Assembly: GCF_000025345.1 (NCBI RefSeq)
Contig: NC_013757.1
Location: 4,030,001 to 4,094,000, forward strand
DNA length: 64,000 bases
Source: Geodermatophilus obscurus DSM 43160
GTDB lineage: Bacteria > Actinomycetota > Actinomycetes > Mycobacteriales > Geodermatophilaceae
Reading direction: 5' to 3'
In this document: positions 41,738-53,652 of the stretch, piece by piece
How positions within the stretch are numbered: position 1 is the first letter of the stretch
Layout of the letters: every line of letters begins with the position of its first letter
Made by a program: the position numbers and the translations under genes
The notes under the pieces: generated by a model
What the model saw: the letters and a program-made list of their open reading frames with translations, nothing else
Told to the model about the DNA's origin: nothing
Databases searched by the model: none

Positions 41738-45001
<3,264 letters not shown>

Positions 45002-45069
45002 CGCGGTCTCCTGGTGGACGGGCGGATCGGGCTACGGCTCGATCGTCGGTGGCGGTGGCCGGGCTCGGA

Positions 45070-45086
45070 CCGGGGAAATCGCCAGG
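45070..45086 (-). promoter_or_regulatory. Shared regulon box A (P-type ATPase)
   Basis: In the direction of transcription CCTGGCGATTTCCCCGG, a near-palindrome centred 77 bp before the ATPase start. 22 bases after it comes GACGAT as a possible -10. One of five related boxes in the island. Confidence 0.7.
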
Positions 45087-45123: not shown

Positions 45124-45603
45124 TCAGTTGTCGGCAGCCGGCACGGTGTACGCGGCGGGCGGCCAGGCGGCGAGGATCTTGGGCCGCAGGGTGGCGCCGA
45201 GGCGGCGGTAGAACCGCTGGGCGTCGACGTTGTCGACCTCCATGCCCCACCGGATGAGCAGCTGCTCGGGTGTGGCCACGGTGGCGAGGGCAGCCATCAG
45301 CCGTCGGCCGACGCCGGCGTCGCGGTGCCCGGGCCGGACGTAGAGGTCGTCGAGGTTGACCACGTCGCCGCCGGTCCACAGGTGCAGCTGCCGGATCGCG
45401 GAGACGTAGCCGACGGCCGCGCCGTCGCGCTCGGCCAGCAGCACGATCACCTCGGCCCGCTCGAGCAGCCCGTGCCACTGTGCGTCGGGCACGTGCACGT
45501 GCGCGGTCTGGTCCTCGTGTGCGGCGATCTCGCGGACCATCGCGGCGACGGTCGCGGCGTCCGCGGGGGTCGCGCGGCGGATCGTGGTGGCGGCAGCGGT
45601 CAT
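45124..45603 (-). CDS. GNAT-family N-acetyltransferase
   Basis: 159 residues from ATG 45603. TIRRATPADAATVAAMVREI opening, LDDLYVRPGHRDAGVGRRLM acetyl-CoA loop and NVDAQRFYRRLGATL at the C-terminus: a complete small GNAT. It lies inside the metal island, between a terminator and box A, without a box of its own. Substrate unknown. Confidence 0.88.
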   Translation of the reverse strand: MTAAATTIRRATPADAATVAAMVREIAAHEDQTAHVHVPDAQWHGLLERAEVIVLLAERDGAAVGYVSAIRQLHLWTGGDVVNLDDLYVRPGHRDAGVGRRLMAALATVATPEQLLIRWGMEVDNVDAQRFYRRLGATLRPKILAAWPPAAYTVPAADN

Positions 45604-45703: not shown

Positions 45704-46195
45704 TCAGCAGTGGGCGTACTCGTGGGGGCGCAGCAGCATCGCCGCGGCCATCGCCGGGAGCATGAGCACGTGGCCCCAGAGCATCAGGGCGCCCTCGCCG
45801 ATGAGCCCGAGTGCGAGCGGGACGAAGAGCACCAGGAACGGCAGGTACATGGCCGCGCCCATCTCGACGATGGGCCGCCAGCGGTGGCCGCGGACCTTCA
45901 TCCACGCGGACATGGCGACGGTCATGTTCGTCGCCATGATCAGCGCGCCGGTGTAGGGGTCGTGCATCAGCCCGGGGGCGCCGACGGCGTCGAGGACGAG
46001 GGTCCACACCGGGTGCAGGGCCACCATGCCGACGGCCATCGCGACGACCATCTCGAGGAAGTGGAGCGTCAACTTCTTGGCGCTCAGGTGGTGCGTGGTG
46101 TGCGCGGGCTCGGCGTGCGCGGTGGCGGCGCTCGGCGTGTGGGTCGGGGTGGGCACGGCGGGTCTCCCGTGAGGCTCGAGGTGGGCGGGGGTCAC
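45704..46195 (-). CDS. Histidine-rich-headed membrane protein
   Basis: 163 residues. Its GTG 46195 overlaps the stop of the CopZ-like gene (GTGA); GTG 46156 is an alternative with a GGGAGA site. The first 40 residues contain many histidines (HLEPHG, HTPS, HAEPAHTTHH), then four membrane helices with methionines in and near them (MHDPYTGALIMATNMTVAMSAWM). No named family. Linkage to a CopZ-like carrier suggests handling of copper or a related metal at the membrane. Confidence 0.75.
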   Translation of the reverse strand: MTPAHLEPHGRPAVPTPTHTPSAATAHAEPAHTTHHLSAKKLTLHFLEMVVAMAVGMVALHPVWTLVLDAVGAPGLMHDPYTGALIMATNMTVAMSAWMKVRGHRWRPIVEMGAAMYLPFLVLFVPLALGLIGEGALMLWGHVLMLPAMAAAMLLRPHEYAHC

Positions 46196-46425
46196 GGGAC
46201 GAGGGCGTAGCCGGCCTCGTCGACGGCGGCAGCGATGTCGGCCCGGTCCACGGGGCGGTCGGCGGTGACGGTGACGGTGCCGCTGGCCGGGTCGACGGTG
46301 ACCGACTCGACGCCGTCGACGGCGGAGATCTCCTCGGCAACGGCGCGCTGGCAGTGCCCGCAGGTCATGCCGGTGACGGTGAAGGTGGTCGAGCCGATGA
46401 AGGTGCGCGGCGTGCTGGACAGCAT
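46192..46425 (-). CDS. CopZ-like heavy-metal-associated domain protein
   Basis: 77 residues, a single HMA domain with the metal motif GMTCGHC at about 19-25 and the usual beta-alpha-beta pattern ending DEAGYALVP. Such proteins carry Cu+ in the cytoplasm to the P-type ATPase. ATG 46425 follows GAGGAG. First gene of a two-gene unit driven from box B. Confidence 0.93.
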   Translation of the reverse strand: MLSSTPRTFIGSTTFTVTGMTCGHCQRAVAEEISAVDGVESVTVDPASGTVTVTADRPVDRADIAAAVDEAGYALVP

Positions 46426-46495
46426 GGGAACTCCTCGGGGTGCGGGTGGTGGTGCGGTCGGGAAGGAGCGTCGGCGCCAGGCCGGGGCCGTCTCA

Positions 46496-46512
46496 CCGGC
46501 GAAATCGCCGGG
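46496..46512 (-). promoter_or_regulatory. Shared regulon box B (CopZ-like unit)
   Basis: CCCGGCGATTTCGCCGG in the direction of transcription, the most symmetric of the five boxes (CCGGCGA/TCGCCGG around two bases). Centred 79 bp before the CopZ-like start. GACGCT follows after 23 bases. Confidence 0.7.
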
Positions 46513-46530: not shown

Positions 46531-48066
46531 TCAGTGGCCGTGGCCGTGCCCACCGTGGACGGGGGTACCGGTGGCGGCCTTGCCGCCGGGAACGGCGAGG
46601 GCGGTGAGGACGAACAGCGCGCCGAGGACGCCGGCGGTGACGGCGAAAGCCCGGCCGTAGCCGTCGATGAGGCCGGCGGAGGTCGCCAGGTCGCCGGCGA
46701 CGGCGCTCAGCGCGGCGACGCCGAGGGCGGCGCCGATCTCGTGGCCGGTCATCATCAGCCCCGACGCCAGCCCGGACTCGTCGGCCGGCACGTCGCTCAT
46801 CGCGGCGACCGCGATGGCGACGAACATCGGTCCGACACCGGCGCCGACGAGCAGGAAGCCGGGCAGCACGTCGGCGGCGTAGGCGGTGCCGCCGGCACCC
46901 GCGGCAAGCAGCAGCACGCCGGCGGCCATGACGACGAGCCCGCCGAGGATCAACGGGCGGGGGCCGAGCCGGCCGATGACCTTCGACGCGGCTGCGGCGG
47001 CCAGGGTGATCGCGGCGGCCAGCGGCAGGAACTGCAGGCCCGCGACGACCGGGGAGGCACCGACGATCGCCTGCAGGTACAGCGAGGACAGGAAGATCGC
47101 GCCGACCACGACGCCGGTCACGCCGGCCATCACCGCTGAGGCTGAGACCAGCGACCGCATCCGCCACGTCGCCGGCGGCACCAGCGGGTCGGCGGCGCGC
47201 CGCTCGAGGCGGGCGAACACGGCCAGCAGGATGGCGGCGGCGGCCAGCGCCAGCCACGTGCGGGGTGCGGTCCAGCCGGCCGAGCGGGTGGCCTCGATGC
47301 CGAACACCAGCGCCAGTAGCCCGGCCACCAGGGTGAGGGCGCCGGGCACGTCCAGCCGGCGCAGCGCGCCGGGCTGCGAGCCGCCGTGAGCGACGGCCCG
47401 CAGCGTGCCGAGGACGACGGCGGCGCCGATCGGCACGTTGATGACGAACACCGCCCGCCAGCCCAGCGCGCTGGTGAGCGCCCCACCGAAGAGCACGCCG
47501 GCGGCGATGCCGAGGCTGCCGACGGTGCCCCAGACGGCCAGCGCGGTCTGCCGCTGCCGGCCGGCGTACGCGGTCATGATGATCGACAGCGCGGCCGGGG
47601 TGAGCAGCGCCGCACCGGCGCCCTGCCCCGCGCGGGCGAGGATGAGCGTCAGCGGGGTCTGCGCCAGCCCGCTGACCAGCGAGGCGGCGGTGAACAGGGC
47701 GACGCCGGCGAGGAACGCGCGGCGCCGGTTGAGCAGGTCGGCGATCCGCCCGCCCAGTAGCAGCAGGCCGCCCGAGAGCAGCACGTAGGCGCTGATCGTC
47801 CATTGGTGGTCCGCCGCCGACAGGTGCAGGGCGTCGCTGATGGACGGCAGCGCGACGTTCACCACCGACACGTCGAGGATGACCATGAACTGGGCGGCAA
47901 TCATCAGCGCGAAAACGGTCCACGGTCGGCGTGGCTCGTCCGCGGTCGTCGACGGGCCGGCGATGTGGTGGGCCGGGTGCTCGTGGGCGTGGGGCGCTCC
48001 GTGGCCGGGGGCGTGCTGGTGCCCGTGGGCGCGGGCCGCCGGTTCGGCGGTCGGGTGGGCCGACAT
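46531..48066 (-). CDS. DHA2-type MFS efflux protein with histidine-rich ends
   Basis: 511 residues, ATG 48066 after GAGGAGG. Fourteen-helix EmrB/QacA-type transporter: helix 1 motif VILDVSVVNVALPSIS, GGRIADLLNRRRAF and ARAGQGAGAALLTPAALS. Unusual for the family, the N-terminal 35 residues hold about ten histidines (HGHQHAPGHG, HAHEHPAHH) and the C-terminus ends GGHGHGH. These tails look metal-binding. Probably a proton-driven exporter; the tails and neighbours suggest a metal or metal-complex link. Driven from box C. Confidence 0.9.
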   Translation of the reverse strand: MSAHPTAEPAARAHGHQHAPGHGAPHAHEHPAHHIAGPSTTADEPRRPWTVFALMIAAQFMVILDVSVVNVALPSISDALHLSAADHQWTISAYVLLSGGLLLLGGRIADLLNRRRAFLAGVALFTAASLVSGLAQTPLTLILARAGQGAGAALLTPAALSIIMTAYAGRQRQTALAVWGTVGSLGIAAGVLFGGALTSALGWRAVFVINVPIGAAVVLGTLRAVAHGGSQPGALRRLDVPGALTLVAGLLALVFGIEATRSAGWTAPRTWLALAAAAILLAVFARLERRAADPLVPPATWRMRSLVSASAVMAGVTGVVVGAIFLSSLYLQAIVGASPVVAGLQFLPLAAAITLAAAAASKVIGRLGPRPLILGGLVVMAAGVLLLAAGAGGTAYAADVLPGFLLVGAGVGPMFVAIAVAAMSDVPADESGLASGLMMTGHEIGAALGVAALSAVAGDLATSAGLIDGYGRAFAVTAGVLGALFVLTALAVPGGKAATGTPVHGGHGHGH

Positions 48067-48132
48067 GGCTCCTCCTCGGGGTGGGGACTGCGGGACTGAC
48101 GCCCACGCTCGCCGCCGCCGGGACCGATCACG

Positions 48133-48149
48133 CCGGTGATCTCACCAGG
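48133..48149 (-). promoter_or_regulatory. Shared regulon box C (MFS gene, also facing the LAL regulator)
   Basis: CCTGGTGAGATCACCGG read leftwards, centred 75 bp before the MFS start, with GAGCGT exactly 22 bases after it. An overlapping palindrome GATCACGCCGGTGATC covers 48126-48141. The box is about 54 bp from the divergent regulator's start, so it could serve both genes. Confidence 0.7.
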
Positions 48150-48194: not shown

Positions 48195-50909
48195 GTGCTG
48201 GCCGGACGGGACCGCGAACGCGCGGCGATCGCCGCACTGCTCGACGCCGCCCGCACCGGGACCGGCGGGGCGCTGGTGATCCGCGGCGTGGCCGGGTCCG
48301 GCAAGTCGACGCTGCTGGCCGACGCCGTCTCCGCCGCCTCCGGGATGCGCGTACTGCGCACGTCGGGCGTGGAGTCGGAGTCCCCGCTGGCATTCGCCGC
48401 CCTGCAGCGGCTGCTGTGGCCGCTGCGTGCCCGCCTCGATGCGCTGCCGGCGCCGCAGGCCGCGGCGCTGGGCGCGGCGCTGGGCGAAGCGGCCGGCGAC
48501 GGCGACCGGTTCCTGGCCTTCCTGGGCACGCTGAGCCTGCTCGCCGACGCCGCCGAGGAGGCACCGGTGCTCGCCGTCATCGACGACGCACACTGGCTCG
48601 ACGACGCCTCGGCCGCCGCGCTGCTGTTCGTCGCCCGCCGGCTGCAGGCTGAGCGGGTCGCGCTGCTGTTCGCTGCCCGCGATGGCGAGGCCCACGACTT
48701 CGACGTCCCCGACCTGCCCACCGCCGTCCTCGGGGGCGTGACCGGGCCCGACGCCGACACGATTCTGTCCGCGCGGGCCGACGACGCGGTGGACCCGGCG
48801 GTGCGCGACCGGCTGGTGGCCGCCACCGGCGGCAACCCGCTCGCGCTCGGCGAGCTCGCCGATGCCCTCACCGGCGACCAGCTGGCCGGCCGGGCGTCGC
48901 TGCCGACGCCGCTGCCGCTGACCGGCGGCGTCGAACGCGGGTTCCTGGACCGGTACCGCCGCCTGTCGACGAACGCGCAGCGGTTCCTGCTGCTCGCCGC
49001 GGCCGACGACACCGGCCGACTGACCGTCGTCCGCGACGCCGCCGCACGTCTCGACGTCGACGACGACGCCCTGGACGAGGCCGAGCGGGTCGGGCTGCTC
49101 CGCGTCGACGGCGACAGCCTGGCGCTGTACCACCCGCTGGTGCGCTCGGCGGTGTACCGCGCGGCCACCAGCACGCAGCGCCGTGCCGTGCACCGGGCGC
49201 TGGCCGACGTCCTCGCCGCCGACCCCGATCGGCACGCCTGGCACCTGGCTGCCGCCGCCGACCGCCCCGACGAGTCCGTGGTCGCAGCGCTGGACGGGGT
49301 GGCCGACCGCGCCGCCGCCCGCGGCGGGCACGAGGCCGCCTCCGCCGCCTGGGCCCGCGCCGCCGAGCTCACCGTCGACAGCAAGGCCCGCGGCCGCCGG
49401 CTGTTCTCCGCCGCGTCCTCGGCGTGGCTCGGCGCCCATCCGTCGCGGGCCGCCGGGCTCGCGGCCGCCGCCGGGGCCGAAGTGACCGACCCGGTCCAGC
49501 GCGCGCGGCTGCTGCTGCTGCAGGGCCAGATCGAGTGGAACACCCACTCCCTCAACGAGGGCTACGACCTCGTCCTGCAGGCCGCCCAGCTGGCCGCCGA
49601 GGTCGATGAGGCGACGGCGCGGCCGCTGGCGATGCTGGCCGCGGCGCTGTCGGCGTTCGGGGCGCGCTCGCCCCGTCCGGTCGATCCGGCGGCGCTGGTG
49701 ACCGAGCCGGCCGCCGACGCACCGCCCACCGCCCGTGCCGCATGGGCGCTGCTACAGGGGTTCGCCGCCGTCGGCCGCCGCGACTGGGCGACCGCCGCGG
49801 CATCCTTCCGGCGCGCGTTCGACCTCACCGACCCCGACCCGCTCGAGGGCGACCACGTCCTGCAGCCCAACCTCGGCATCGCCGCCTGGCTCATCGACGA
49901 GGACGAGCGCAGCCTGCGGCTGCACGAGGAGCAGCTGACCGCCGCCCGCCGCGCCGGGGCACTGAACATGGTCGAGCACGCCCTCACCCGGGGATTCCAC
50001 TCCCAGCTGGCGACCGGCGCGTGGACGACGGCCGCCGGCGCCGCCGCCGAGGCGCTGCCACTGACCGCCAGCACCGGCTCCACCGGGCTGACCGCGCTGC
50101 CCACCGCCCAGCTGGCCGTGGTCGCGGCCCTGCGCGGCGACGAGGCCACCGACCGGCACCTCGCCGACGTCGCCGCGATCCGCGCGGCGCATCCGGTCGG
50201 CATCACCGACAGCCTCGTGGCCGACCTCGCGCACTGGGCGCGGGCGCTGCGGACCGCCGGGCAGCCCGCGCCCGCGCTGCACCACCTGGAGCAGCTGCAG
50301 AACCCGGTGCGGCGCCGCATGGCCGCCCTCGACGTGTTCGACATCGCCGTCCGGGCCGGCCGGGAGGACGTCGCCCGTACCTGGCTGACCGAGGTCGAGC
50401 AGTTCGCCGCGGCCACCGGCACCGCCGGCGCGGTCGCCGTCACCGAGCACGGCCGCGCCGTGCTCGCCGACCGCCCCGACGCCGAGAAGCACTTCCTCGC
50501 CGCGCTGGACGCGCACGCCGCCTCCCCGCGGCTGCCCGACCGGGCCCGCACCCACCTGGCCTACGGCGAGCACCTGCGGCGCGCCCGGCGGCGGGTCGAC
50601 GCCCGCGAGCACCTGCGGGCTGCGCTCACCCTCTTCGAGGAGCTGGGCGCGGCGCCCCACGCCGAACGCGCTGCCCAGGAGCTGCGTGCCTCCGGGGAGA
50701 CCGCCCGCCGCCGCGACGTCACCACGACGACGGAGCTCACCGCGCAGGAACGCCAGGTCGCCGGGCTGGTCCGGCAGGGCCTGTCCAACCGGGACGTCGC
50801 CGCCCGGCTGTTCGTCAGTCCCCGCACCGTCGACTTCCACCTGCGCAACGTGTTCAGCAAGCTCGGCGTGGCCTCCCGCGCCGAGCTCACCGCGCTGGCC
50901 CTGGACTAG
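48195..50909 (+). CDS. Large LuxR-family (LAL) transcriptional regulator
   Basis: 904 residues from GTG 48195; no strong ribosome site, and the frame is open upstream. N-terminal AAA-type ATPase: opening LAGRDRERAAIAALLDAA, Walker A GVAGSGKSTLL, Walker B VLAVIDDAHWLD. A long helical TPR-like middle (about 270-820) follows. The C-terminal LuxR helix-turn-helix is LTAQERQVAGLVRQGLSNRD with VSPRTVDFHLRNVFSKLGV. LAL proteins are usually ATP-dependent activators that respond to a ligand. It sits in the middle of five promoters sharing one palindrome, so it is the best candidate to bind it. Confidence 0.92.
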   Translation: MLAGRDRERAAIAALLDAARTGTGGALVIRGVAGSGKSTLLADAVSAASGMRVLRTSGVESESPLAFAALQRLLWPLRARLDALPAPQAAALGAALGEAAGDGDRFLAFLGTLSLLADAAEEAPVLAVIDDAHWLDDASAAALLFVARRLQAERVALLFAARDGEAHDFDVPDLPTAVLGGVTGPDADTILSARADDAVDPAVRDRLVAATGGNPLALGELADALTGDQLAGRASLPTPLPLTGGVERGFLDRYRRLSTNAQRFLLLAAADDTGRLTVVRDAAARLDVDDDALDEAERVGLLRVDGDSLALYHPLVRSAVYRAATSTQRRAVHRALADVLAADPDRHAWHLAAAADRPDESVVAALDGVADRAAARGGHEAASAAWARAAELTVDSKARGRRLFSAASSAWLGAHPSRAAGLAAAAGAEVTDPVQRARLLLLQGQIEWNTHSLNEGYDLVLQAAQLAAEVDEATARPLAMLAAALSAFGARSPRPVDPAALVTEPAADAPPTARAAWALLQGFAAVGRRDWATAAASFRRAFDLTDPDPLEGDHVLQPNLGIAAWLIDEDERSLRLHEEQLTAARRAGALNMVEHALTRGFHSQLATGAWTTAAGAAAEALPLTASTGSTGLTALPTAQLAVVAALRGDEATDRHLADVAAIRAAHPVGITDSLVADLAHWARALRTAGQPAPALHHLEQLQNPVRRRMAALDVFDIAVRAGREDVARTWLTEVEQFAAATGTAGAVAVTEHGRAVLADRPDAEKHFLAALDAHAASPRLPDRARTHLAYGEHLRRARRRVDAREHLRAALTLFEELGAAPHAERAAQELRASGETARRRDVTTTTELTAQERQVAGLVRQGLSNRDVAARLFVSPRTVDFHLRNVFSKLGVASRAELTALALD

Positions 50910-50953
50910 CCGCAGGCCCCCGGGCCGCTCCGGCCACGTCGGCCCGACCGCAA

Positions 50954-50998
50954 CCTGGCGGTTCTCCCGGCGTGACGCCGCGGGCCCGCTCCTAGCGT
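50954..50998 (+). promoter_or_regulatory. Shared regulon box D with -10 element
   Basis: Box CCTGGCGGTTCTCCCGG at 50954-50970, then CGTGACGCCG, and TAGCGT at 50993-50998, exactly 22 bases after the box. The box centre lies 72 bp before the start codon. If TAGCGT is the -10, the box is centred near -43, the classic place of a LuxR-type activator site. Confidence 0.7.
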
Positions 50999-51033: not shown

Positions 51034-51507
51034 ATGACCACGGCCACTGCAGCGACCACGGAGACCATGACCGGCCGCGCCGGCGGCCCGCGCGGCGCGC
51101 TCGCTCGCCGCTGGCCGGCCGCGCTCGGCGCCGTCGCCGCCGTCAACAGCTTCGCGCTCGTCGCGCGGCTGCCGGAGCACGCGCAGACCTGGGTCAGCGC
51201 CTGGTGCGTGCTGCTCGCCGCGGTCATCTACCTGACCTGGGGCACCGCCCGCGGCGACCTCGGCAACCGGCGGCTGCTGACCGCGCAGACCGCGGCGGTG
51301 CTCGGCTTCGGCGCGGTGGCGATGACGGCGGTCGCCGTTGACGTCGACGCGGCCCGCTACGTGCTAGCCGCCGGCTGGCTCGCCCACGCCGCCTGGGACG
51401 TCGTCCACCACCGCATCGGCCGGGTGGTGCCCCGCTGGTACGCCGAGACCTGCCTGGTCGCCGACCTCACCATCGCCACCGCGCTGCTCACCGTCGGCAT
51501 CGGCTGA
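51034..51507 (+). CDS. Five-helix membrane protein of the island
   Basis: 157 residues, ATG 51034 after GAGGAG. Short polar head, then about five membrane segments. AAGWLAHAAWDVVHHRIGRVVPRW, with three histidines between helices 4 and 5, is the only striking motif. No family named. Sixty bases before the CzcO-like gene, so probably co-transcribed from box D. Confidence 0.75.
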   Translation: MTTATAATTETMTGRAGGPRGALARRWPAALGAVAAVNSFALVARLPEHAQTWVSAWCVLLAAVIYLTWGTARGDLGNRRLLTAQTAAVLGFGAVAMTAVAVDVDAARYVLAAGWLAHAAWDVVHHRIGRVVPRWYAETCLVADLTIATALLTVGIG

Positions 51508-51566: not shown

Positions 51567-52700
51567 ATGCCCATCCCCGTCTCCGCCGCCGACCAGCCCC
51601 TCGAGGTGCTCGTCGTCGGCGCCGGCCAGGCCGGCCTCGCACTGGGCCAGCACCTCGCCCGCCGCGGCGCGAACTTCCTGCTGCTCGACGCCGGCCCCCA
51701 GATCGGCCACTCCTGGCGCTCCCGCTGGGACTCGCTGCGGCTGTTCAGCCCCGCCCAGTACGACTCGCTGCCCGGCCTGCCGTTCCCGGCTCCGGCCGAC
51801 ACCCACCCCAGCAAGGACGACGTCGCCGACTACCTGCAGTCCTACGCCGCCCACTTCGCGCTGCCGGTGCGGTGCAACTCCCCGGTGCTGCGGCTGCACC
51901 CCGACGCGGACGGCAGCTTCACGGCCACCACCCCAACTGGCACGCTGCGCGCCGAGCAGGTCGTCGTCGCCACCGGCCCGTTCCAGATCCCGCACATCCC
52001 CGCCCTCGCCGAGCAGCTCGACCCGCTGGTGACGCAGCTGCACAGCGCCGCGTACCGCAACCCGACCCAGCTGCCCGGCGCCGGCCGGGTGCTCGTCGTC
52101 GGCGCAGCCAACTCCGGCCTGCAGATCGCTGCCGAACTCGCCGCCACCCGACCGGTCACCGTCGCCGTCGGCAGCCGGCCGACCGAGCTGCCCCAGCGCA
52201 TCGCCGGCCGCGACCTGTTCTTCTGGCTGACGGAGTCCGGGTTCTTCACCGTGCCCGCGCACACCCGCATCGCCCGCCGGCTGCGCGCCCGCGGCGACAT
52301 CGTCATCGGCACCCGCAGCAGCACCCTGCGCCGCCGCGGGATCGACTTCCGGCCGCGGCTGACCGGCATCACCGGCCGCACCGCCCGCTTCGCCGACGGC
52401 ACCACCGTCGGCGTCGACGCCGTCGTGTGGGCCACCGGCTACCGACCCGACTACTCCTGGCTGCACGTTCCTGGCGCCGTCGTCGACGGGCGGGTCCGCC
52501 ACACCGGCGGGGTCACCGACGTGCCCGGCCTGTACTTCCTCGGGCTGCCCTGGCAGACCTGCCGCGGTTCGGCGCTGCTCGGGTTCGTCGGCGCCGACGC
52601 TGCGGCGCTCTCCGCCCGCATGGCCGTCGACGCCACCGCGCCAGCGGCGCGCGCCGAGCCCGGCCGCGGGCCGGCGATCCCGGCGGTCTTCCCGGCGTGA
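51567..52700 (+). CDS. CzcO-like flavin-containing monooxygenase
   Basis: 377 residues, ATG 51567 after AGGAGG. FAD fold VLVVGAGQAGLALGQHLARRG, the region GHSWRSRWDSLRLFSPAQYDSLPGLPFP and a second nucleotide fold VLVVGAANSGLQIAAEL, where GAANSG replaces the more usual GxGNSG. A C-terminal VVWATGYRPDYSWL closes the flavoprotein core. The type is found as CzcO or TrkA-like protein near heavy-metal efflux genes. The enzymatic substrate is unknown. Box E lies inside its last codons. Confidence 0.9.
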   Translation: MPIPVSAADQPLEVLVVGAGQAGLALGQHLARRGANFLLLDAGPQIGHSWRSRWDSLRLFSPAQYDSLPGLPFPAPADTHPSKDDVADYLQSYAAHFALPVRCNSPVLRLHPDADGSFTATTPTGTLRAEQVVVATGPFQIPHIPALAEQLDPLVTQLHSAAYRNPTQLPGAGRVLVVGAANSGLQIAAELAATRPVTVAVGSRPTELPQRIAGRDLFFWLTESGFFTVPAHTRIARRLRARGDIVIGTRSSTLRRRGIDFRPRLTGITGRTARFADGTTVGVDAVVWATGYRPDYSWLHVPGAVVDGRVRHTGGVTDVPGLYFLGLPWQTCRGSALLGFVGADAAALSARMAVDATAPAARAEPGRGPAIPAVFPA

Positions 52701-52723
52701 CGCCGCCGCGGCGTTCCCAGCGT
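52679..52723 (+). promoter_or_regulatory. Shared regulon box E with -10 element
   Basis: Box CCCGGCGGTCTTCCCGG at 52679-52695 overlaps the 3' end of the CzcO-like gene. The next ten bases CGTGACGCCG are identical to those after box D, and CAGCGT follows exactly 22 bases after the box (52718-52723). Centred 76 bp before the next start codon. Confidence 0.7.
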
Positions 52724-52762: not shown

Positions 52763-53239
52763 ATGTCCACCGCGACCCTGCTCCCCACCTCCGTGCACGA
52801 CGCCGACGTGGCGGCGGCCACGCTGCCCGCCCGGCACGGTCGGCCCGCGGGGACCGGGGGCTCCGCGGCGGTCCGGGCGTTCCTCGCCCACTACAGCGGC
52901 ACGCTGCTGCCGCTGCTCGCCGCCGTGACCGGCCTCGAGGTCGGATGGCAGATGTACGCCGCGGACACCGGGCCGGCCGCCGCCGCGGTCGTCACCGGCT
53001 GGGCGCTGGTCACCGCTGCCTGGCTGCACCGCCGCGGCTGGCAGCCGGGCACCGTGCGGGCGGTCATCGCCGCTCCGGCGGCCGTGCTGGCCGGCCTCGG
53101 CGCGCTCGGCTGGCTGGCCCCGGCCGGGCTGGTGGTGTGGGGGCCGGTGGCCACCGTGCTGGCCGCGGCGCCGGCGATGGCCGCGCAGCCGCCGGCACCC
53201 GAGCGGCCCGCGCTCCGCCGGGCCTCCGCTCGCGACTGA
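52763..53239 (+). CDS. Membrane protein of the island
   Basis: 158 residues, ATG 52763 after AAGGAGG. A polar 45-residue head, then about four membrane segments (LLPLLAAVTGLEVGWQMYAA, AAAVVTGWALVTAAWLH, a hydrophobic run to residue 140). No family recognised. Its own box E, although only 62 bases separate it from the preceding gene, shows it is a separate transcription unit. Confidence 0.72.
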   Translation: MSTATLLPTSVHDADVAAATLPARHGRPAGTGGSAAVRAFLAHYSGTLLPLLAAVTGLEVGWQMYAADTGPAAAAVVTGWALVTAAWLHRRGWQPGTVRAVIAAPAAVLAGLGALGWLAPAGLVVWGPVATVLAAAPAMAAQPPAPERPALRRASARD

Positions 53240-53273: not shown

Positions 53274-53456
53274 GTGACCGCCTCCCGCACCGGCCTGCTC
53301 GCCGGGCTTGTGGCCGCCGCGGCCGGCGAGATCACCGCCTCCGCCACCCGCCGTGGCCGGTCACCGTCCTCCAGGCTGGCCCGCGGTCTGGTCGACGCCT
53401 CCCCGGCGATGCTCGTCGACGGCGGCGTCGCGCTCGTCGGCCGGGCCGACAAGCCT
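53274..53456 (+). pseudogene. N-terminal remnant of a membrane-anchored molybdopterin oxidoreductase
   Basis: GTG 53274 with a GAAGGAG site. About 61 residues (SRTGLLAGLVAAAAGEITAS ... RLARGLVDASPAMLVDGGVALVGRADKP) resemble the membrane N-terminus of actinobacterial sulfite-oxidase-like molybdopterin proteins, ending at the ADKP that normally precedes the next helix. Beyond 53456 the sequence belongs to another gene on the other strand. Identification rests on a short stretch. Confidence 0.55.
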
Positions 53457-53652
53457 CGAAGATGCGTCCGAGCTGGGCCTCGCTGCGGGTGACCTCGGCG
53501 CGGGCGGTCGACAGGGCCGTGAGCAGCCGCTGGCGCAGCCGGCCGTCTGTGATGACGCTCTCCGGCTGCAACCGGGGCGCGTCGTCGTTTCGTCGTCCTC
53601 CGGTTGGAGGACGACGCTCGTACGTGTCGGCACCGGACAAGAGGACCGACAC
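53454..53652 (-). pseudogene. N-terminal remnant of a PAS-type signalling protein
   Basis: Reading leftwards, ESVITDGRLRQRLLTALSTA then RAEVTRSEAQLGRIFEA looks like the coiled lead-in and first strand of a PAS domain (...SEAQLxxIFEAAP). It is cut at the same point where the molybdopterin remnant ends. A perfect 11-bp hairpin (53591-53616, loop GGTT) lies near its beginning. Start codon uncertain; GTG 53652 is one choice. Confidence 0.5.

Follow-up and report, generated by a model that had tools for sequence, protein, structure and literature searches.

The locus lies in a window of 64,000 nucleotides from Geodermatophilus obscurus DSM 43160 (contig NC_013757.1, positions 4,030,001 to 4,094,000 of the forward strand), the whole stretch of DNA that was analysed. 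It forms an island with five transcription units, each of which has one 16-bp box ahead of it (Table 1).

Table 1. Genes, boxes and -10 elements of the island, in window positions.
Feature	Position	Strand	Remark
P1B-type copper-transporter-like ATPase	41738..45001	-	C-terminal YtkA-like extension
-10 of promoter B, GACGAT	45042..45047	-	22 bp past box
Box B CTGGCGATTTCCCCGG	45070..45085	-	5' of P1B ATPase
GNAT acetyltransferase	45124..45603	-	between boxes A and B, without own box
Small membrane-like protein, no family match	45704..46159	-	probably in HMA unit
HMA-domain (CopZ-like) metallochaperone	46192..46425	-	Pfam HMA 1.8e-17
-10 of promoter A, GACGCT	46467..46472	-	23 bp past box
Box A CCGGCGATTTCGCCGG	46496..46511	-	5' of CopZ-like HMA gene
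DHA2-type MFS exporter, both ends His-rich	46531..48066	-	
-10 of promoter C, GAGCGT	48105..48110	-	22 bp past box
Box C CTGGTGAGATCACCGG	48133..48148	-	between divergent LAL and MFS genes, facing MFS gene
LAL regulator gene	48195 (GTG)..50909	+	904 aa
Box E CTGGCGGTTCTCCCGG	50955..50970	+	5' of DUF6010 membrane protein and CzcO/ArsO-like gene
-10 of promoter E, TAGCGT	50993..50998	+	22 bp past box; kept in orthologues
DUF6010 membrane protein	51034..51507	+	
CzcO/ArsO-like flavin monooxygenase	51567..52700	+	
Box D CCGGCGGTCTTCCCGG	52680..52695	+	overlapping 3' end of CzcO-like gene
-10 of promoter D, CAGCGT	52718..52723	+	22 bp past box
Membrane-like protein, family not assigned	52763..53239	+	behind box D
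Molybdopterin oxidoreductase (Oxidored_molyb), truncated remnant	53274..53492	+	

The island ATPase carries the Cu(I)-pump motifs CPC, YN and MxxSSx5N. In TM7 it has G in place of the N of the CsoR-linked paralogue, and so do the relatives of the island ATPase. The His-rich C-terminus of the MFS exporter recurs in those orthologues for which this end of the protein was inspected. The molybdopterin oxidoreductase is long or whole in the relatives L039, L040, L041, L054 and L109; in G056 (L104 8785) a molybdopterin oxidoreductase was seen with its own box.

Among the nine island ORFs tested, the only regulator gene is that of the LAL, which diverges from box C, in agreement with the earlier note made from the sequence. 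The note's statement that no CsoR, MerR or CueR gene is present is correct within the island; it does not extend to the genome, where two CsoR-family genes were found outside the island. The two CsoR copies are nearly identical (G000:C1:3783861 and G000:C1:1753144; loci L098 and L099). At L098, the neighbours of CsoR are an HMA protein and another CopA-like ATPase. With this CsoR-HMA-CopA locus elsewhere in the genome, the island counts as a second metal set under separate control. Ordinary copper control, with CsoR acting in trans on the island promoters and the boxes being secondary, might be suggested by the presence of two CsoR-family genes, one of them beside another HMA/CopA pair. We nevertheless regard it as very improbable, given that the island boxes by themselves carry promoter grammar and that the CsoR locus L098 has no LAL-type box.

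The consensus of the box, rWC CYGGYGRTTYYCCCGG YSNGA, was derived from 57 distinct boxes of orthologous loci, picked by box score alone without use of the -10. The outer CGG/CCG arms are almost invariant, and GA is found at bases 4-5 downstream of the box in nearly all of them. Of the 57 boxes, 30 have NAnnnT 22 bp downstream and 26 have it 23 bp downstream (either distance, 56/57), and at any other offset tested it occurs in at most one. Among the five island -10 elements, only that of E is TAnnnT; those of A-D all lack the first T, which is the sole departure in C and D, and this tells against the activator reading. The hexamers that the earlier note had read for promoters C, D and E were recovered at the distance it gave, and the -10 of promoter E ends at position 50998, the end coordinate given in that note. 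Its wording "exactly 22 bp" is accurate for these three promoters and also for B, but fails as a rule, since A has 23 bp and the 57-box set 22-23 bp.

A search of the 5.3-Mb genome of G. obscurus with the extended pattern, followed by scoring of the matches, returned seven sites: boxes A-E with 26-36 bits and two others with 7 and 10 bits. Two simpler queries were discarded. The box alone (CYGGYGRNNTYNCCGG) gave 74 matches against 22 in the reversed control and is therefore too loose to define the regulon, and the box with AGCGT only was specific, yet it missed the A, B and E sites.

Counted from predicted start sites, the boxes would be centred at about -42.5/-43.5, which upholds the earlier estimate of near -43, as the spacing in the 57 boxes and in the held-out sites described below is 22-23 bp throughout with one exception in each set. 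This architecture fits promoters that depend on an activator, since the -35 is poor, with only GA conserved, and the spacer of 15-16 bp is short. The same features, together with the position at about -43, the classic site of a class II activator, speak against a LAL that binds the boxes as a repressor over a weak -35 and is freed by a signal. The box does abut the -35 region, and in most loci the nearest box lies about 50-70 bp from the LAL gene start, from where it could serve autorepression; on balance we consider repression improbable.

A matrix built from boxes A-E detected the same box ahead of the same genes in about 20 orthologous Geodermatophilaceae loci. Scanning 84,980 species genomes yielded 41 loci, 22 of them outside Geodermatophilaceae. 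The latter belong to Nocardioides, Sphaerisporangium, Micromonospora, Intrasporangium, Phycicoccus, Pedococcus and Streptomyces, in each of which LAL and boxes stand beside the same genes, as well as to Actinomycetospora and others. Loci of the same clade had served to train the motif score, so that only the test on held-out loci, which come from other actinobacterial families, were absent from motif building and were scored with the unchanged matrix, is independent. A box of at least 20 bits was present in 19 of the 22 held-out loci. The held-out LAL loci (373 kb) gave 40 matches that reached 20 bits, whereas neither three dinucleotide shuffles nor 264 kb of control loci gave any. Of the 44 held-out matches of at least 18 bits, 43 had NAnnnT at 22 bp (13) or 23 bp (30). 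As all three recur in the held-out loci, the combination of box, spacing and gene set has been preserved in several actinobacterial orders. The LAL shares 79% identity with a LAL of Nocardioides, which belongs to another order than Geodermatophilus, and this points to horizontal transfer. The plasmid search for the LAL gave no match, so that no plasmid carrier was seen for it.

The boxes, their distance to the -10, the gene set and the co-occurrence with the LAL were established by computation. A close LAL, defined by at least 56% identity, is encoded in 23 of the 115 family genomes. High-scoring boxes (at least 21 bits, among matches to the extended pattern) were detected in 19 of these 23 genomes and in none of the 92 others (p about 4e-18). 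Boxes are mostly present with LALs having the recognition helix RTVDFHLRN, and none were found with LALs of about 50% identity that have the helix RTVEYHLSN and no metal genes nearby. L135 and L137 (RTVG/AFHLRN) have no boxes and L143 (RTVAFHLRN) has one weak variant box; L065, with the same helix as the box-linked LALs, has no box in reach. In G053, G054 and G114, ATPases of the 71-73% type of divergence have an adjacent LAL and the box is present. A box followed by TAGCGT at 22 bp was also seen in G051 (L066 8507), beside a LAL of only 45% identity; this case and that of L065 tell against the link between LAL and box.

Co-occurrence and HTH variation thus support the link between LAL and box. 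Given this co-occurrence, the rigid -10 spacing and the helix differences that track the absence of boxes, the LAL is very probably the reader of the boxes, acting as class II activator at about -42.5/-43.5; this is the role that the earlier note had assigned to it, and the likeness to a PAS-LuxR operator (see below) is a further argument for it. It is hard to believe that the boxes have a different LuxR-type reader, with its gene elsewhere, and that the LAL is merely linked to them. Such genomes do hold many LuxR-type genes, and variant boxes occur in SARP-type loci without a close LAL; against this stand the genome-wide lack of high-scoring boxes in the 92 family genomes without a close LAL, the joint presence of box and LAL in several families, and a LAL HTH that varies with the box.

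The SARP-type loci harbour sister ATPases (71-73%), which in six loci adjoin a SARP/AfsR-type STAND regulator, so called from Pfam in L092 and, in the other five, from visual inspection of the divergent reading frame. This regulator is divergent from HMA (L092 3330-6782 and L093-L097), and the HMA promoter shows 11-bp spaced repeats (GCTGTCCggacGCTGTCC) like SARP sites. The canonical box is absent at the HMA and ATPase promoters of all six loci, in contrast to G053, G054 and G114, which favours the LAL as reader. L092, L093 (as CCGGCCATCTCGCCGG), L095 and L096 have a variant box CCGGCCATATCGCCGG, with CACAGT 22-23 bp behind it, 5' of a small ORF that precedes the sister ATPase. As one of the SARP-type loci with a variant box is in G110, a genome without a LAL match above the search cut-off, similar boxes may have a second reader.

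The LAL protein begins with an AAA_16/STAND ATPase (Pfam, residues 2-156, E = 2.8e-20) with the motifs GVAGSGKS and VLAVIDD and ends with a LuxR/GerE HTH (Pfam, residues 847-902 of 904, E = 8.8e-17), with a TPR arm between them; Pfam found no PAS domain. The AlphaFold2 model has a mean pLDDT of 88.9, and its closest PDB entry is the STAND-TPR protein 6mfv, with low whole-length TM-scores. Assignment as a MalT equivalog was rejected, with 45 bits, from the HTH only, against the cut-off of 537 of NCBIfam NF003420. In four loci of one genus (L043, L045, L048 and L049) a tandem second LAL of about 60% identity adjoins the orthologue.

None of the 904 residues of the window LAL is a cysteine, and no Cys is conserved across 29 LAL orthologues. 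Thiolate sensing of Cu(I) by the LAL is unlikely for this reason, and the LAL was dismissed as a thiolate copper sensor like CsoR or CueR, as the conserved Cys ligands are not present. The term copper-type efflux set, used in the earlier note, is partly supported, by the Cu-type motifs of the ATPase; this support does not extend to copper as the signal. It is quite conceivable, if somewhat short of an even chance, that the regulon answers a non-metal stress, for instance a small toxic compound or reactive species of chlorine or sulfur, with metal export as one arm and the LAL still as reader. In addition to the lack of a conserved cysteine, the flavin monooxygenase, the DHA2 drug-type exporter and, in relatives, the molybdopterin oxidoreductase would agree with such a signal, and known LALs answer metabolites. 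The recurrence of the CopA-like ATPase, the CopZ-like chaperone and the His-rich MFS tail across the family argues for metal. More tentatively, STAND ATPases, the LAL and the SARP/AfsR-type regulator by the sister ATPase, might be an overlooked class of metal-efflux activators whose sensing of metal stress is indirect and free of thiolates, via a ligand or a partner protein, for example the metallochaperone.

From these sequences we infer the binding, the activation, the ATP switch and the metal cargo of the following model. Two GerE HTH domains would bind each 16-bp palindromic box at the five promoters, where a degenerate -35 (NNGA) adjoins the box downstream and the NAnnnT -10 follows after 22-23 bp, and the LAL, centred 42.5-43.5 bp ahead of the start, would recruit RNA polymerase as a class II activator. 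A change from a resting monomer to an ATP-bound oligomer, on contact of a ligand or partner with the TPR arm, is probable because other STAND regulators, of which MalT is the type case, behave in this way. The set switched on would export metal by means of the CopA-like ATPase, the CopZ-like chaperone and the His-tailed MFS exporter, to which the regulon would add redox enzymes, namely the flavin monooxygenase and, in relatives, the molybdopterin oxidoreductase. We have high confidence in the account as a whole, that is, in a LAL that locally activates a five-unit metal-export set via the boxes from a class II position.

Bacteria usually control metal efflux through small proteins that sense the metal directly. 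The predicted control of copper-type export by a LAL would thus give to a LAL a task usual for small copper-sensing proteins. If a cysteine-free ATP switch rules this conserved and mobile regulon, cells can couple the export of metal to a different signal. The rigid promoter grammar offers a ready test and a route to further members of the regulon.

CsoR, CueR and RicR, which control copA/copZ, bind Cu(I) via conserved Cys/His, and CsoR is a repressor. The type of target gene is alike in the island; the protein family is unrelated, and Cys is absent from the LAL. SARP/AfsR-type STAND regulators share the STAND ATPase with TPR, but they read direct repeats by an OmpR-type winged helix with BTAD, whereas the LAL has a GerE HTH and a palindrome. 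Among the titles and abstracts on copper, LAL and metal found in an open-access library, none describes a LAL ruling metal efflux; the accessible text of a Kineococcus copper study reports two LuxR homologues and no regulon for them, and that of a Frankia metal study names CsoR, MerR and ArsR and not LuxR. With the LAL regulators of the MalT type, including SCO0877 and SCO7173 of Streptomyces, the island LAL has in common a length of about 900 aa, the N-terminal ATPase, the TPR arm, the C-terminal LuxR HTH and the predicted role as activator of a local gene set. Known LAL regulators act on maltose genes, on secondary metabolism and on the phosphate response (PMC3282765; PMC9774167), while the targets predicted here are metal-efflux genes. 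The operator of the PAS-LuxR regulator PimM is a 16-bp palindrome, CTVGGGAWWTCCCBAG, in the -35 region (PMC9774167); it is compatible with the box consensus at 14 of 16 positions and differs at positions 5 and 15, and the LAL, without a PAS hit, is about four to six times longer than PAS-LuxR proteins. The predicted box centre agrees with that of the lux box at -42.5 (PMC3376562), the position of a class II activator.
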